The notes beneath the pieces were generated by a model, which saw only the letters and a program-made list of their open reading frames with translations, searched no databases and was not told where the DNA came from. Source: an uncultured Ruminococcus sp. (GTDB taxonomy: Bacteria > Bacillota > Clostridia > Oscillospirales > Acutalibacteraceae). From it: 54,035 bases of DNA. How positions within the stretch are numbered: position 1 is the stretch's first letter; each line of letters opens with the position of its first letter. Positions 4,164 through 54,035 of this stretch are shown here, one piece after another. A program made the translations under genes and the position numbers. The stretch is from contig CACYPH010000011.1 in NCBI GenBank assembly GCA_902776185.1, forward strand, positions 1-54,035. Direction: 5' to 3'.

Positions 4164-4800
4164 GCTGATCGAGCAGAACCTCGGGCTGGTACACGCCTGC
4201 GCCAAGCGATTCTCGGGCAAGGGCATCGACTACGATGATCTGTATTCTGCGGGCTGTCTGGGGCTCATAAAAGCCATCGACCGCTTTGACCCCGACCGCG
4301 GGTGGCAGTTATCGACCTACGCCGTGCCGGTCATCCTTGGCGAGATCAAACTGCTGTTTCGCGAGGGCGGCACGGTCAAGCTGTCACGCTCGTTAAAGGA
4401 ACGCAGTATGCGCGCGCGAAAGATTGCCGACGAATACCTGCGAGAAACCGGAAAGGACATCCGCATCGAAGAGCTTGCCCGACTGCTCGGCTGTGACGTT
4501 TATCAGGCGCAGGAAGCGCTGAATGCCGCTCAGGCGACGGTATCGCTGTCCTATACGGACGAGGACGGCGGGGGAGAACTCAGCATCCCCGTGCCCTCTC
4601 CCGAGGAAAATCTCACGGACAGGCTGTCGCTCAGAGAAGCGATGGGGGCGCTCAGCGACGATGACAGACGCCTGATCCTGCTTCGGTATTATCAGCACAA
4701 GACCCAGTCGGATACCGCTCGTCAGCTCGGCACGACCCAGGTGCAGATCTCGCGCAGGGAAAAGAAGATTCTGCTCAAAATGCGCGCGATGCTGTTGTAG
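4150..4800 (+). CDS. sigF: RNA polymerase sporulation sigma factor SigF
   Basis: A 216-aa sigma-70-family protein with region 2 (GIDYDDLYSAGCLGLIKAIDRFDP, within residues 25-50), a region 3 and a region 4 helix-turn-helix near the C-terminus (DTARQLGTTQVQISRREKKIL). SigF directs the first forespore-specific transcription after asymmetric division. ATG 4150 lies inside the end of spoIIAB. Presence of the complete operon indicates a genome with endosporulation genes. It converges on ricT, with a shared terminator between them. Confidence 0.93.
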   Translation: MTRNELIEQNLGLVHACAKRFSGKGIDYDDLYSAGCLGLIKAIDRFDPDRGWQLSTYAVPVILGEIKLLFREGGTVKLSRSLKERSMRARKIADEYLRETGKDIRIEELARLLGCDVYQAQEALNAAQATVSLSYTDEDGGGELSIPVPSPEENLTDRLSLREAMGALSDDDRRLILLRYYQHKTQSDTARQLGTTQVQISRREKKILLKMRAMLL

Positions 4801-4810
4801 CGGTAAAAAA

Positions 4811-4842
4811 ACCGCGGTGGAGAATTCCGTCGCGGTACTTTT
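4811..4842. terminator. terminator between sigF and ricT
   Basis: ACCGCG (4811-4816) pairs with CGCGGT (4831-4836), with inner GGA/TCC pairing, then TTTT. An A-run on the left side (4805-4811) lets it serve the opposite strand too, so it probably ends both convergent operons. Confidence 0.7.
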
Positions 4843-4855
4843 CTGCGTGATTTGA

Positions 4856-5722
4856 TTATTCCAAGCCCTTGAGATCGTCCATTTCCTTTTTGTTGAGCTT
4901 GATGTAGCCGTCCTTGACGATGCGCACCTGCCTGACCTTGAAGGTCTGGGGAGCGGCGTCGTCGGGGGTGTTGTCCATCTTGACCTTGAGTGTCTGACTG
5001 AGAAGATTGTTCTCGACAACCAGTCCTCTGCCTAAGGGGGTCTTGACGATCGCGCCGACCTTGGGGGTGCGTTTGAGGAGATCGGTGTAGGCGTCCTGCT
5101 CGTATTTGAGGCAGCACATCAGCCTCCCGCACGTGCCGGAGATCTTGGTCGGGGAGAGGGAGAGCCCCTGCTCCTTCGCCATCTTGATAGAAACAGGATG
5201 GAACTCGCCGAGGAAGCTCGAGCAGCAGAACGGTCTGCCGCAGACGCCTAAGCCCCCGAGCATCTTGCTCTCGTCGCGCACGCCGATCTGGCGAAGCTCG
5301 ATGCGGGTGCGGAAAACGGACGCGAGATCCTTGACCAGCGCGCGGAAATCCACTCTGCCGTCGGCGGTGAAGTAGAACAGGATCTTCGAGTTGTCAAAGG
5401 TGTATTCCACGTCGACCAGCTTCATCTCCAGCCCGTGGTCGGCGATCTTTTTCTCGCAGATCTTGAGCGCTTCCTTCTCCTTGCGCTGATTCTCCTCAAG
5501 GCGCTTGAAGTCCTCTTTGGTCGCCTTGCGGATGAGTTTTTTCAGCGGATGGACGATGTCGTCGTCGCCCACCTCTTTATTTTCCATGGCGATCTTGCCG
5601 CATTCGATCCCGCGGGCGGTCTCGACAATGACGGTGTCGCCGATATGTAGCTTCTGGTTGTCGGGATCAAAGTAGTAGACCTTGCCTACCTCCTTGAACC
5701 TTACGCCGATTACTTCTGCCAT
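4856..5722 (-). CDS. ricT: PSP1-domain protein RicT (YaaT)
   Basis: A 288-aa PSP1 C-terminal domain protein. The cysteine clusters CGRPFCC (C161, C166, C167) and CGRLMCC (C198, C203, C204) are the RicT hallmark; in B. subtilis RicT works with RicA and RicF as an Fe-S-containing complex that affects mRNA maturation and entry into sporulation, competence and biofilm. The start at 5722 has a textbook AGGAGG; the frame extends to 5752 without a site. It overlaps holB by 13 bases, as in the conserved holB-yaaT pair. RicA and RicF are not in the window. Confidence 0.9.
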   Translation of the reverse strand: MAEVIGVRFKEVGKVYYFDPDNQKLHIGDTVIVETARGIECGKIAMENKEVGDDDIVHPLKKLIRKATKEDFKRLEENQRKEKEALKICEKKIADHGLEMKLVDVEYTFDNSKILFYFTADGRVDFRALVKDLASVFRTRIELRQIGVRDESKMLGGLGVCGRPFCCSSFLGEFHPVSIKMAKEQGLSLSPTKISGTCGRLMCCLKYEQDAYTDLLKRTPKVGAIVKTPLGRGLVVENNLLSQTLKVKMDNTPDDAAPQTFKVRQVRIVKDGYIKLNKKEMDDLKGLE

Positions 5723-47295: not shown

Positions 47296-48072
47296 CTATC
47301 CAAGCGCAACGTCGAGCGCCATCATCAGCGTAAAGCCGACGCCAAAGGTCATCACGCCGACGAGGGAACGCTCTCCTGCGGAGGTTTCGGGGATCAGGTC
47401 ATCGACGACGACATACATCATCGCGCCCGCCGCAAAGGTGAGCAGATAGGGCATCGCCGGGGCGATCAGCCCCGCATACGCGACCGTCAGCAGCCCGAAC
47501 AGCGGTTCCACCGCGCCCGACAGCGTACCGTCGATGAATGCGCGTGTGCGGCTATGACCCTGTGCGTGCAGAGGCATCGAGATGATCGCGCCCTCGGGAA
47601 AATTTTGGATCGCGATCCCGGTCGCCAGCGCCAGCGCTCCGCCCGCTGTGATATCGCCGATACCGGCGATCAGTCCTGCGTAGACGACCCCGACCGCCAT
47701 CCCCTCGGGAATGTTGTGCAGTGTGACCGCGAGCGCCATCATCGTGGTGCGCATCCCGTTCGTCGATTTTTGCGCGCGCAGATACAGTCGACGGATCAGA
47801 CGGTCGAGCAGCACGAGAAAGAGGATCCCCGCCCAAAAGCCGATGACAGACGGCAGAAATGCCCAGAAGCCGAGCCCCTCGGATTGTTCGATCGCCGGGA
47901 GGATCAGGCTCCAGACCGACGCCGCGACCATCACTCCCGCCGCAAAGCCGGTCAGCGCTTTTGCTACCCTGTCGCTGAGCTGCTTTTTCATAAAATATAC
48001 AACCGCCGCGCCGAGCGTAGTGCCGATGAACGGTACCGTCAGCCCGAGCAGTACATCAGAATTCAGAAGCAT
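47296..48072 (-). CDS. ZIP-family metal transporter
   Basis: A 258-aa polytopic protein with eight helices. The metal pathway motifs HNIPEGMAVG (helix 4) and NFPEGAIISMPL (helix 5) are the ZIP signature; GVAxP style bacterial ZIPs import zinc, iron or manganese. The histidine-rich loop usual in eukaryotic ZIPs is absent. ATG 48072 is better spaced from AAAGGA than ATG 48078. Stop codon lies next to heptad element D. Confidence 0.88.
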   Translation of the reverse strand: MLLNSDVLLGLTVPFIGTTLGAAVVYFMKKQLSDRVAKALTGFAAGVMVAASVWSLILPAIEQSEGLGFWAFLPSVIGFWAGILFLVLLDRLIRRLYLRAQKSTNGMRTTMMALAVTLHNIPEGMAVGVVYAGLIAGIGDITAGGALALATGIAIQNFPEGAIISMPLHAQGHSRTRAFIDGTLSGAVEPLFGLLTVAYAGLIAPAMPYLLTFAAGAMMYVVVDDLIPETSAGERSLVGVMTFGVGFTLMMALDVALG

Positions 48073-48170
48073 ATCCATTTCCTTTATGTGTATTGCGTGT
48101 TACTTCCATGTATATTGAAACTACCACGATACATCATATGCAAAAAGTGAAAACACGTACCGCAAATCGG

Positions 48171-49647: not shown

Positions 49648-50193
49648 ATGAAACGAAAAACAACAAAAGAGATTCTTGCGGAGTCATTCCGCGAGCTTGC
49701 AGAGAAAAAGAGTATCGACAAGATCACCGTCAGGGATATCACCGAGAACTGCGGTTATTCCTCGGCGACCTTTTACCGTCAATTCAAGGATAAATACGAT
49801 CTGATCGCTTGGGCATATACAAAGGATCTGGAAAAGATCATGATTCAGATCGCTTTTGATGAGAATTCCTGGAAAAAGACCCTGATCGACGCGGCGTATT
49901 ACTACCGCGATCACAAGGACTATCTTTCTAATCTGCTTCTGCATACGAGCGGTTATTTATCTTTTATCCGCTATATGTCGGAGATCAACTATCGCAGTCT
50001 GAAAAACACGATCGAAAAATCAGATCATTACATTCAGGATGAAAAGACAGATATGTACATCCGTCTGTACTGTCAGGGGACGGTCGCGCTGACCTGCGAC
50101 TGGATACTTGAAAAATATCACGCGACGCCCGAGGAGCTTGCCGAGATCTACGAGAAATCTCTGCCCGAACCACTGAGAGAATATCTGTATTGA
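49648..50193 (+). CDS. TetR/AcrR-family transcriptional regulator
   Basis: A 181-aa repressor. Its N-terminal HTH is ITVRDITENCGYSSATFYRQFKDKYDLIAWAY; the remaining helical region is poorly conserved and holds the ligand pocket. The sequence style is that of the DhaS-like branch of small TetR proteins. It lies 147 bp before the ferritin-like gene on the same strand and may regulate itself or neighbours. Ligand unknown. Confidence 0.86.
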   Translation: MKRKTTKEILAESFRELAEKKSIDKITVRDITENCGYSSATFYRQFKDKYDLIAWAYTKDLEKIMIQIAFDENSWKKTLIDAAYYYRDHKDYLSNLLLHTSGYLSFIRYMSEINYRSLKNTIEKSDHYIQDEKTDMYIRLYCQGTVALTCDWILEKYHATPEELAEIYEKSLPEPLREYLY

Positions 50194-50250
50194 TTACGAG
50201 AGAATCGATGCAATTTTTCTCATAATGAGAAAATATACAAATATTATGAA

Positions 50251-50288
50251 TTGAAAAACCCCCGATTTTCGGTACAATGATAATTGTA
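50251..50288 (+). promoter_or_regulatory. promoter with OhrR-box-like palindrome
   Basis: TTGAAA (50251-50256), 16 bases, TACAAT (50273-50278). The -10 box is itself the left half of the perfect palindrome TACAAT-gata-ATTGTA (50273-50288). B. subtilis OhrR is known to bind TACAATT-AATTGTA; this site differs by one base of spacing. An OhrR-type protein is encoded two genes on. Confidence 0.65.
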
Positions 50289-50291
50289 ATT

Positions 50292-50317
50292 GCGCACAAT
50301 AAGAGAGCGCACAATAA
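50292..50317 (+). repeat. short direct repeat in ferritin-like gene leader
   Basis: GCGCACAATAA occurs twice (50292-50302 and 50307-50317), separated by GAGA, between the palindrome and the ribosome binding site. The 15-bp period could be regulatory or leader RNA. Confidence 0.5.
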
Positions 50318-50340
50318 TGTACCAAAACGGAGGTTTTATT

Positions 50341-50796
50341 ATGGCAAACGCAAAAGTAATCGAAGGCTTACAGATCATCGTTACCGATCTCGCTCAGCAG
50401 GCGGACGGTCACGCACTCCAGTCCCGCATCTTCGCGGCAGAGGGCTTCACAAAGCTCGCTGAAAAATACGCTGAGCACGCGACAGAGGAACGCGGCTGGG
50501 TAGAGAAATGCACCGACAGACTGCTCGACCTCGGCGTCGACGTCAAGCTCGAAGCGAAAAAAGAAGGTCCTGTCTATAAGGATCCGGTAGACTGGGTCAA
50601 GTATGACCTCGAGGTCTCGAAAGCCGGTCTTGCATGGCTCAAGGAGATCACCGAGGAAGCACGCGAGGACTACACCACCTTCGACATCCTCAAGGAGTAT
50701 TATCAGGACGAGGAAGAGGATATGTACTGGGACGAGGCTCAGCTCGAGCTGATCGAGTGCATCGGCAAGCAGAACTGGCTCTTACAGCAGCTTTAA
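50341..50796 (+). CDS. ferritin-like protein with degenerate diiron ligands
   Basis: A 151-aa four-helix protein of the bacterioferritin size and pattern (YAEHATEERGWVEKCTDRLLDLGVD, YYQDEEEDMYWDEAQLELIECIG). When I align it from memory to E. coli Bfr, the ferroxidase ligands E18, E51, H54, E94, E127 and H130 correspond to D16, E49, G52, S93, E124 and D127, so both ExxH histidines and one Glu are lost; the haem Met52 position is E50. It may store iron differently, bind another cofactor or act only structurally. GGAGG precedes ATG 50341; earlier in-frame starts have no site. First gene of the apparent ferritin-ohrR-MBL/rubredoxin operon. Confidence 0.75.
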   Translation: MANAKVIEGLQIIVTDLAQQADGHALQSRIFAAEGFTKLAEKYAEHATEERGWVEKCTDRLLDLGVDVKLEAKKEGPVYKDPVDWVKYDLEVSKAGLAWLKEITEEAREDYTTFDILKEYYQDEEEDMYWDEAQLELIECIGKQNWLLQQL

Positions 50797-50805
50797 TAAC
50801 GAGAA

Positions 50806-50841
50806 AAAGAGGTTGACGTTAATAATCACGCCGACCTCTTT
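50806..50841 (+). other. hairpin between ferritin-like gene and ohrR-type gene
   Basis: AAAGAGGT (50806-50813) pairs with ACCTCTTT (50834-50841), extended inside by further pairs (TG/CG region), followed by a weak T stretch (TTGTAT). It could be a partial terminator that makes more of the first gene than of the downstream regulator. Confidence 0.5.
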
Positions 50842-50857
50842 GTATAAGGGGATCATA

Positions 50858-51289
50858 ATGCAGAATGACGAAACAATCAAGCTCGATAATCAGCTTTGCT
50901 TTCCGCTGTATGCCTGTGCCAAAGAGGTCGTCCGACAGTATCGCAAGCCCCTTGAGCCGCTGAATCTGACCTATACGCAGTACATCGTGATGATGGTGCT
51001 GTGGGAGTTCGGGAGCATGACAGAGGGCGAGCTGGGCAAGAAAGTTCGCCTCGATTCCGGCACGCTCGCGCCGCTGTTGAAACGGCTTGAAAAACAGGGG
51101 CTGATTAACCGTACCCGTCCCGAGAACAATGAACGCAAGCTGTATCTTTCACTCACCGATCAGGGCGAAGCGTTAAAGGAAAAGGCAGTATCCGTACCGC
51201 AAATGATGGACGGATGCATCCCGCTGACAAATGACGAATTGACTGTGTTGAAAAAACTACTGGACAAAGCGCTGATCAATATGTCATAA
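50858..51289 (+). CDS. MarR-family organic peroxide sensor, OhrR type
   Basis: A 143-aa winged-helix repressor with the one-cysteine OhrR layout: QLCFPLYACAKEVVRQY holds the reactive Cys14, and Y28 and Y39 (LTYTQY) match the two tyrosines that hydrogen-bond to it. A second Cys at 20 is extra. The winged helix is GELGKKVRLDSGTLAPLLKRLEKQGLINR. OhrR proteins release DNA when organic hydroperoxides oxidise the Cys. No ohrA peroxidase is present; the neighbours are the ferritin-like and MBL-rubredoxin genes. AAGGGG precedes the start. Confidence 0.88.
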   Translation: MQNDETIKLDNQLCFPLYACAKEVVRQYRKPLEPLNLTYTQYIVMMVLWEFGSMTEGELGKKVRLDSGTLAPLLKRLEKQGLINRTRPENNERKLYLSLTDQGEALKEKAVSVPQMMDGCIPLTNDELTVLKKLLDKALINMS

Positions 51290-51312
51290 TAAGAGAAAAG
51301 GAGGCATAGCTT

Positions 51313-52254
51313 ATGATCATCAAAGCAGTAAAATTCAGAAAAGACGGTTTTTATACCCAGCCGTTCGTTTTCGGCGGCGAGGAAGGCGCTGAAAAATTTG
51401 ACCCGACTGTCCGTTATCGCGGCAGCTTGCAGAATTACCTGATCGATACCGGCGACGAGGTGATCTTGGTCGATACAGGCTTGCCTGCGGGTACGCCCGA
51501 GGAAGTACCGGACGAAACCAGCATGGTATATACCGGCAAGGATATCAGCAGCTATATGGAAGCGCTTGCCGATCTCGGCTACAAGCCCGAGCAGGTGACG
51601 AAGATCCTGCTGACACATAAGCACAGCGACCATTCGGGGGAACTGAAATCCTTCCCGAACGCACAGATCTTTCTGAATGAAGAGGAAGTCAGCGCCGATG
51701 AATTACAGGGTATCCCGAATCTTGTCCCTGTCAAATTCACCGACGGCGCGTACTATAACTTCCCCGAGAGCCAGAAGATCACCGACGGTGTGTATCTGAT
51801 CAAGGCGAAGGGTCACACCAACGGCAACAGCCTTGTCATTGCCGAAAAAGACGATCTGTTCTATCTATTTGAGGCGGACATCACCTATGTTGACGAGGCG
51901 CTGTATGAGAATAAGCTCTCTATCGTATTCGACGATCTTCCCGCGGCGCGTGAAACACTCGACCGTGTGCGCGAATTCGTCCGCAATCATCCGACTGTCT
52001 ATATGGGTACTCATACGCCCCAGGGCTATGAGAATCTCGAGGCAAACCGTGTGATGGATTTGGATAACCCTGTCGAGACGGTATTTGCCGAGGTCGATTT
52101 CAGCGAGCAGAAAGCTACGGGCATCTACGTTTGCTCTATCTGCGGTTATGTTTACGATCCCGCTGAGCATGACGGCGTTGCATTTGAGGACCTTCCCGAC
52201 GACTGGCGCTGCCCGCGCTGCAAACAGCCGAAAGCGAAATTCAACAGAGCATAA
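51313..52254 (+). CDS. metallo-beta-lactamase fold / rubredoxin fusion
   Basis: A 313-aa fusion. The MBL domain (1-250) binds two metals: THKHSDH (H102, H104, D106, H107), H168, D189 and H234, resembling lactonases and glyoxalase II rather than flavodiiron proteins, which use HxExD. The C-terminal domain (271-313) is a full rubredoxin with C274-x2-C277 and C300-x2-C303 and the usual [12 protein letters not shown] and [13 protein letters not shown] rubredoxin attached to an MBL suggests electron transfer or redox gating of a hydrolase. AGGAGG precedes the start, 23 bases after the regulator. Function of such fusions is not established as far as I know. Confidence 0.88.
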
Positions 52255-53592: not shown

Positions 53593-53634
53593 AAACCGGC
53601 ATAGTCTTTTCAATGATGAGATCTATGCCGGTTT
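53593..53634 (+). terminator. terminator after dinB
   Basis: AAACCGGCATAG (53593-53604) pairs with CTATGCCGGTTT (53623-53634), 12 bp, 18-base loop. The right arm ends in TTT. Confidence 0.8.
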
Positions 53635-53644
53635 AATATTTGGT

Positions 53645-54035
53645 CGGAGTGAAGTACGCGTTACAATGTCAAAACTTCTGCCTCGTCTTGGGAGCGCCCT
53701 GCGGGCGACAGAGGTAGATCAACGCTCTCGCTAAAATTCTCCTACAGGTTAAATTGATAACCGACGGAGTGAAGTACGCGTTATGATGTCAAAACTTCTG
53801 CCTCGTCTTGGGAGCGCCCAGCGGGCGACAGAGGTAGATCAACGCTCTCCCTGAAAATGCCATACTATGGCATTTTCACCTACGAGATGCGCTAACGCTT
53901 ATCCCTCGGCACGGTCGCCTTCAAATCCCTTCACTCCTCCTACAGGTTAAATTGATAACCGACGGAGTGAAGTACGCGTTATGATGTCAAAACTTCTACC
54001 TCGTCTTGGGAGCGCCCAGCGGGCGACAGAAGTCT
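53645..54035. repeat. three long direct repeats at window edge
   Basis: No gene is visible after 53560. Three copies begin at 53645, 53765 and 53963 with CGGAGTGAAGTACGCGTTA, then ATGTCAAAACTTCT, CCTCGTCTTGGGAGCGCCC and GCGGGCGACAGA. Copy 3 is cut by the window end. Copies are joined by CTCCTACAGGTTAAATTG. Copy 2 is about 78 bp longer than copy 1; the extra piece includes the 25-bp palindrome at 53853-53877. Confidence 0.85.
53853..53877. repeat. 25-bp perfect palindrome inside second repeat copy
   Basis: GAAAATGCCATA (53853-53864) and TATGGCATTTTC (53866-53877) are exact complements around a single C at 53865. Confidence 0.8.

Follow-up and report, generated by a model that had tools for sequence, protein, structure and literature searches.

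A recurring gene set of a ferritin-like protein, an OhrR-type sensor and an MBL-rubredoxin in a Ruminococcus contig: a possible oxidant-responsive operon of rumen and gut anaerobes

Near the end of a 54,035-nt stretch of contig CACYPH010000011.1 from an uncultured Ruminococcus sp. (GenBank assembly GCA_902776185.1; the whole stretch is called "the window" below), three genes encode a ferritin-like protein, an OhrR-type sensor of the MarR family, and a protein in which a metallo-beta-lactamase (MBL) domain is joined to a rubredoxin (MBL-rubredoxin). A preliminary description, made from the sequence alone, had proposed them as a peroxide-responsive operon. Open reading frames (ORFs) and Pfam and NCBIfam scans bear out its claim of three co-directional genes with short gaps: all lie on the + strand, with 61 nt between the ferritin-like gene and ohrR and 23 nt between ohrR and the MBL-rubredoxin gene. 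Our analysis adds to that description a tetR gene, co-directional with the operon and 147 nt 5' of the ferritin-like gene, a 19-bp palindrome, a second candidate operator (M2) and a hairpin between the first two genes. The features, in window positions, are:

49648-50193, + strand: TetR-family regulator (TetR_C_8, DhaS-like; Pfam TetR_N 1e-8, TetR_C_8 2.7e-12)
50215-50233: perfect 19-bp palindrome TTTTCTCATAATGAGAAAA, upstream of the -35 box, candidate TetR site
50251-50278, + strand: sigma-70-type promoter TTGAAA-16-TACAAT, recognized only as a pattern match that agrees with the consensus at 10 of 12 positions
50273-50288: M1, TACAATGATAATTGTA, the OhrR site proposed in the preliminary description
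50290-50314: M2, TTGCGCACAA-N7-GCGCACAA, candidate operator directly 3' of the -10 box
50341-50796, + strand: ferritin-like protein, 151 aa (Pfam Ferritin 8e-16), bacterioferritin fold, 2 of 6 diiron ligands retained
50806-50841, + strand: terminator-like hairpin between the ferritin-like gene and ohrR, candidate attenuator (-15.9 kcal/mol, z -2.46)
50858-51289, + strand: OhrR-type MarR-family Cys sensor, 143 aa (MarR 5e-17; PDB 1z91 6.9e-35)
51313-52254, + strand: MBL-rubredoxin, 313 aa (Lactamase_B 5.6e-14; Rubredoxin 2.3e-11), lactonase-type with a short C-terminal rubredoxin

A scan of public genome contigs identified at least 511 confirmed relatives of the MBL-rubredoxin; our locus counts use the best 80 of the 511, which are 79–86% identical to the window protein with all 313 residues matched, and whose titles name Clostridia and Bacteroidales, mostly from rumen and gut. 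Many of the 80 loci are cut by contig ends, so that all neighbour counts are lower bounds. The MBL-rubredoxin gene has OhrR nearby in 30 loci, a ferritin-like gene in 34, a glutathione peroxidase (GPx) gene in 16, a gene for a small winged-helix protein in 36 and tetR in 22, and any of OhrR, ferritin and GPx occurs in 51 of the 80. The survey for the three-gene order, which the preliminary description had suggested as a check, found it on one strand in 15 of the 80 loci; a sixteenth (L111; L and G numbers are our handles for loci and genomes) has ferritin and ohrR swapped, again upstream of MBL-rubredoxin on the same strand, and in L113 the ferritin is matched only in part. Other loci have the order OhrR-MBL-ferritin (L067 and L082) or MBL-ferritin-OhrR (L074), and these several gene orders suggest that the cluster was assembled repeatedly. 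G035 and G102 preserve the longer order tetR - ferritin-like - small winged-helix ORF - ohrR - MBL-rubredoxin, and G019 has the same order but with ohrR broken (L053, G019:C337, 5096-5384 on the - strand; ferritin, winged-helix and MBL-rubredoxin genes retained, M2 with 3 mismatches). Of two cultured carriers, Bilifractor porci (L070) has the ferritin, ohrR and MBL-rubredoxin genes together, and Ruminococcus flavefaciens ATCC 19208 (L096) has ferritin and MBL-rubredoxin, with neither ohrR nor M2 within the stretch examined.

Among 118 related genomes, MBL-rubredoxin was found in 10 (E <= 1e-20), a match to the window ferritin in 7 (E <= 0.001) and OhrR homologues in 48 (E <= 1e-12; 57 matches altogether). 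With 57 matches in 118 genomes of about 1–5 Mb, the presence of OhrR within about 10 kb by chance would be well under 1%, an estimate that compares different genome sets and holds to an order of magnitude only. Further recurrent neighbours include members of the Pfam families FMN_red, PNPOx_N, Fer4, Zip and AhpC-TSA, and the GPx, FMN reductase, PNPOx-like and ferredoxin-type genes agree with the redox setting that had been proposed. The locus is a real, recurring and mobile arrangement of known parts; its function we infer. The open-licence PMC papers searched contained no description of this operon.

The best solved matches of the sensor are the OhrR proteins of Bacillus subtilis and Xanthomonas campestris (1z91, from B. 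subtilis, 6.9e-35, the best of all; 2pfb, 9.5e-33). Residues C14, Y28 and Y39, which correspond to conserved Cys and Tyr residues of known functional roles in OhrR, are present in every one of the 39 aligned OhrR rows, of which 37 are distinct (L158 being identical to L071 and L159 to L082), in agreement with the earlier identification of the middle gene as an OhrR-type Cys sensor. C120, which in the alignment lies one position off the C-terminal Cys of X. campestris OhrR, is present in 29 of the 39. The sensor remains under the cut-off of the NCBIfam OhrR equivalog NF052638 (TransRegOhrRVib; 163.8 vs 200 bits). No match to OsmC/Ohr (PF02566) was found in the window's genome, which is 86% complete, in line with the earlier remark that neither outer gene is a classical OhrR target; the family is matched in 3 of the 118 related genomes. 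In 14 of 30 OhrR loci taken with flanks of up to 1.5 kb there is a GPx gene, mostly next to paralogues that share about 50% identity with the OhrR of the window; one such paralogue occurs in the window's own genome, with the gene order OhrR - cation efflux protein - GPx. Internal in-frame deletions were seen in the ohrR genes of L071 (5616-5981) and L080 (5195-5560), the former losing part of the DNA-binding region.

The AlphaFold2 model of the ferritin-like protein (pLDDT 95) is a four-helix bundle with a fifth helix, and it matches bacterioferritin, with TM 0.92 to BfrB of Pseudomonas aeruginosa at 25% identity. Bacterioferritins hold their diiron centre by E18, E51, H54, E94, E127 and H130 and their haem by Met52; the aligned residues of the window protein are L17, E50, W53, S93, E124 and D127, with R51 at the haem-Met position, which confirms the altered ligands noted in the preliminary description. 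Its score lies under the NCBIfam bfr cut-off (41.4 vs 125.55 bits). E50 and E124 are invariant across 30 aligned members (the window and 29 others; L117, with a stop in the stretch, L082, L093 and the partial matches L113 and L137 were left out), and we therefore regard the protein as a conserved variant; the reading as a decayed gene was rejected on the same ground.

Three ferritin subtypes occupy this position in the cluster, the two others being 23–31% identical to the window's. Between the window and its sister G035 the promoter is well preserved (50 of 60 bases identical at 50190-50249 and 53 of 60 at 50250-50309), as are ohrR and MBL-rubredoxin, while the stretch that begins with the ferritin-like gene and ends shortly ahead of ohrR diverges sharply. 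This is read as a segment swap that would have exchanged the ferritin and also removed the small winged-helix gene. Because the promoter and the regulators are kept while the ferritin segment differs, the feature under selection appears to be a slot for a ferritin-like protein rather than one particular ferritin. In L063 (G061:C9, 5763-6635 on the - strand) a ferritin about 90% identical to the window's breaks off early and its reading frame carries on through unrelated sequence; for the resulting fused ORF, Pfam gave no match at 0.001.

The third gene had been described as a rubredoxin-linked hydrolase, and the domain matches listed above agree. The metal ligands H102, H104, D106, H107, H168, D189 and H234 and the rubredoxin cysteines C274, C277, C300 and C303 (two CxxC motifs) are invariant in both alignments made (11 and 21 sequences). 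Sequence and fold searches place AiiA-type lactonases and methyl parathion hydrolase among the best matches of the MBL part, and for the rubredoxin part the matches are short rubredoxins; the model behind the fold search was weak (pLDDT 72), and the 50 matches listed have TM values of 0.38–0.56 by query length. The protein scores far under the AiiA family cut-off (70.9 vs 375 bits). Flavodiiron proteins have the motif HxExDH. We considered and rejected a flavodiiron oxygen reductase: Lactamase_B and Rubredoxin are the only domains above Pfam cut-offs, there is no flavodoxin domain, and the motif is HxHxDH, with H104 in place of the flavodiiron Glu. In L052 (G102; 4796-4939 on the - strand) a separate small rubredoxin (Pfam 2.4e-22) directly follows the MBL-rubredoxin gene.

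The preliminary description had placed one promoter in front of all three genes and taken its -10 box as half of a palindrome close to the OhrR operator. A consensus promoter match is indeed present at 50251, although promoter-like matches are hardly in excess in the region (6 vs a mean of 3.6 in shuffles). The palindrome also exists: M1 is the sole exact TACAATN4ATTGTA in the window and arose in none of 5000 first-order shuffles of the 160-bp promoter. The OhrR box quoted in an excerpt of PMC6034001 is TACAATTNAATTGTA, with a 3-nt spacer, whereas that of M1 has 4 nt, and the same exact pattern occurs in 40 of the 118 related genomes. Among 26 tetR-linked ferritin promoters, only those of the window and L051 (G035) carry M1 without a mismatch, and L110 has it with one. 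Given the extra base in the spacer and the small number of relatives with the element, M1 is probably not the main operator, as far as can be judged from sequence. A canonical OhrR box in the window promoter was likewise rejected, the best match to the 15-mer having 5 mismatches, and 16 ferritin-ohrR promoters gave no signal for it (82 mismatches vs 79 in shuffles). Ten GPx-ohrR promoters, hand-picked like the 16, total 21 mismatches to the box (shuffled mean 46, minimum 40, in 300 shuffles); taken singly, six have p <= 0.01 and four p between 0.06 and 0.10. The GPx genes of L028, L037 and L049, in such paralogue operons, are preceded by a near-canonical box, TACAATTAATTTGTA, with one mismatch. 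The region upstream of the OhrR paralogue of the window's genome has no OhrR box match (5 mismatches). OhrR may have been rewired to GPx in this group of genomes, in which Ohr/OsmC is rare (3/118).

M2 was sought as TTGYGCRCAA-N(6-8)-GCRCRCAA, with at most 3 mismatches, in the 26 tetR-linked ferritin promoters; L156, where the contig ends, was left out. It is present in 17 of the 18 promoters with ohrR downstream vs 2 of the 8 without (Fisher p = 8e-4), an association among related loci which is not blind, because the pattern was written after looking at the same promoters. When two loci with damaged ohrR are dropped, the counts become 15/16 vs 2/8 (p = 0.0013). Two loci depart from their ferritin type in a manner that favours the link: the window has the window-type ferritin, yet carries both ohrR and M2, and L160, with another ferritin type, has neither. 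Exact M2 occurs in 3 of the 118 relatives, every time in this promoter (a reversed control in 2 genomes). Across 394 genomes of the order, 5 contain it, four in this promoter and one inside a gene (reversed control in 3 genomes); these searches show that almost nothing else matches M2. Loci lacking both ohrR and M2 are scattered over four positions of the TetR tree, three of which lie among loci that have both; only the fork that joins L160 with L052, L156 and L157 is well supported, and those of L161 and L089 are weak. The small winged-helix protein was rejected as the M2 binder, its presence not tracking M2: the gene occurs without M2 in L095, L096 and L103, and M2 occurs where no such gene was found in the window, L061, L069, L079, L090, L110 and L157.

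The TetR-family regulator matches NCBIfam DHAK_reg (8.9e-18) under its cut-off, and its relative DhaS is an activator. Relatives of the locus have an inverted repeat in the place of the 19-bp palindrome, whose letters vary with the TetR subtype, as compared by eye only. Nine relatives chosen for the comparison have hairpins at the same place between ferritin and ohrR, some with a U run after them (z-scores from -0.9 to -3.6 in the ten stretches). A terminator scan of the + strand did not list the window hairpin at 50806-50841, and it is a possible attenuator. Because of this hairpin and of the second regulator, TetR, the earlier picture of one shared promoter is perhaps too simple.

Whether these genes form an oxidant-inducible operon that answers to two regulators and belongs to a redox-protection island mobile among rumen and gut anaerobes, we judge to be evenly balanced. 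In the working that we propose, binding partners, inducer, metal binding and catalysis are all predicted from sequence. The OhrR-type repressor would occupy TTGYGCRCAA-N7-GCRCRCAA directly 3' of the -10 box, and oxidation of Cys14 by an organic (or other) peroxide would make it leave the DNA, so that the ferritin-like gene, ohrR and the hydrolase-rubredoxin gene could be transcribed. TetR would act from the palindrome 5' of the -35 box and might, as DhaS does, serve as an activator; the hairpin after the ferritin-like gene would let only part of the transcript pass, so that the ferritin-like protein would be plentiful and the repressor and enzyme scarcer. Since it combines a bacterioferritin fold with the lack of a classical ferroxidase site, the ferritin-like protein would more likely bind or sequester metal than oxidize iron in the usual manner. 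The enzyme has what appears to be a complete AiiA-type dinuclear metal site, to which the rubredoxin domain would probably feed electrons or which it would keep reduced. As for the peroxide or metal-redox module first proposed, the sensor, the gene order, the absent classical target and the redox setting speak for it, while its operator is doubtful and its single promoter perhaps too simple.

Several observations weigh against the oxidant-inducible operon and its M2 operator. Within the stretch examined, 29 of the 80 MBL-rubredoxin loci have none of OhrR, ferritin and GPx, and the MBL-rubredoxin model is poor. The damaged ohrR genes in two of the 18 promoter loci with ohrR (L053 broken, L071 with the internal deletion) both stand behind an M2 with 3 mismatches, and counting these two as lacking ohrR raises p to 0.005; L080, outside the 18, has an ohrR deletion and yet an exact M2, and L075 has ohrR and a weak M2. 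M2 is present in L061 and L062 with no ohrR nearby, and the ferritin subtype confounds the link, as 5 of the 6 loci lacking both ohrR and M2 carry the window-type ferritin; once window-type promoters are excluded, M2 is found in 16/17 vs 2/3 and the association is statistically lost (p = 0.28). These M2 exceptions, and the fact that M2 is unlike the published OhrR boxes compared, in so far as the excerpts consulted give them, would suit a different assignment, in which another protein binds M2 (TetR, the small winged-helix protein or a further regulator) or M2 accompanies the ferritin cassette, the OhrR-type protein then regulating some other target or its own gene alone. We hold this to be somewhat unlikely: TetR is present at all 26 promoters, with or without M2, the small winged-helix gene comes and goes independently of M2, the site of a global regulator should not be near-unique in the genome as M2 is, and the window keeps M2 with a ferritin type that elsewhere lacks it.

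The recognition helix of the sensor resembles that of B. subtilis OhrR and would predict a canonical box, a further point against M2 and one in favour of the scheme of the preliminary description, in which TACAATGATAATTGTA, overlapping the -10 box, is the site from which the OhrR-type protein controls all three genes. The half-site letters of M1 are those of the published box, its position over the -10 box is suitable, it recurs in G035 and nearly so in L110, and several paralogue GPx-ohrR operons have a near-canonical box; given the longer spacer, the 5 mismatches to the 15-mer, the null result with the 16 ferritin-ohrR promoters and the spread of the pattern over 40 of 118 genomes, we lend this scheme little credence. 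The signal might also be another thiol-reactive one (sulfane sulfur, hypochlorite or a quinone), which the operon would handle, the enzyme acting on persulfides or electrophile adducts; the MBL fold also covers persulfide dioxygenases. In one study (PMC8614764), sulfane sulfur is reportedly an inducer of E. coli MarR. Such a signal is improbable here, as the GPx and AhpC-type genes that recur by ohrR and MBL-rubredoxin fit peroxides better. An accidental neighbourhood without shared function would explain the sparse distribution of MBL-rubredoxin (10/118) and of window-like ferritin (7/118) and the loci without partners; with the same genes found together in several orders in loci of Clostridia and Bacteroidales, and the promoter kept while the ferritin segment differs, it is scarcely credible.

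Two observations concern other parts of the window. A ZIP-type metal transporter gene (47296-48078, - strand, Pfam Zip 1.5e-16) lies upstream of an opposite-strand galactokinase-like gene; ZIP-type genes are found in 9 of the 80 MBL-rubredoxin loci (one member confirmed as a Zip match), and the window's copy is possibly a relic of a larger island. At the contig end a 108-base block occurs in three copies (53608-53715, 53728-53835 and 53926-54033), the first and last of which match the middle copy at 70% and 94% identity.

To return to the oxidant-inducible operon, its genes look like a movable protection kit against oxidants, in which a putative sensor stands between an unusual ferritin and an electron-carrier enzyme. 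The open-licence papers searched gave no account of the way in which strict anaerobes of gut and rumen deal with organic peroxides by OhrR-type sensors without the Ohr peroxidase, and a horizontally shared operon that combines a sensor, a testable operator and a metal enzyme with its own electron donor offers a direct handle on this question. The arrangement brings together an OhrR branch that would have new targets and perhaps another operator, a ferritin-like slot whose occupant can be exchanged, and an enzyme of lactonase fold that carries its own rubredoxin. The bolder proposal, that a branch of OhrR in anaerobes lacking Ohr has changed both its operator, to TTGYGCRCAA-N7-GCRCRCAA, and its regulon to command exchangeable non-ferroxidase ferritin-like cassettes and a rubredoxin-powered lactonase-fold enzyme, is distinctly unlikely; if true, the latter would be a new kind of oxygen-independent enzyme for the detoxification of peroxides or oxylipins.

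Each part has known counterparts, from which it differs. The window sensor shares with OhrR of B. subtilis and X. campestris the MarR fold, the N-terminal Cys and the two Tyr residues, but no ohr gene was found, its promoter has no canonical box, and it is linked to ferritin-like and MBL-rubredoxin genes. EstR of Agrobacterium tumefaciens, as described in the excerpt of PMC5201249 consulted, is an OhrR-related Cys sensor that controls the hydrolase EstC rather than Ohr, from the non-canonical operator GTTATCGCGATAAC. The EstR-EstC pair thus resembles what we propose for the window in its type of sensor, its hydrolase partner and its non-canonical operator, and is, by analogy, a precedent for an OhrR-related sensor that controls a hydrolase from an unrelated operator; it differs in that EstC is an esterase, the operator is unlike M2, and that excerpt mentions no ferritin-like partner. 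The ferritin-like protein has the four-helix bundle and fifth helix of bacterioferritin, but only two of its six diiron ligands, and Arg in place of the haem Met. The enzyme shares the HxHxDH-H-D-H ligands of AiiA-type N-acyl homoserine lactonases and methyl parathion hydrolase, and differs from the AiiA-type lactonases by its C-terminal rubredoxin and by a score far below their family cut-off. With flavodiiron proteins and flavorubredoxin it has in common the MBL fold and, in some members, a rubredoxin, whereas it lacks their flavodoxin domain and carries HxHxDH as its metal-binding motif.

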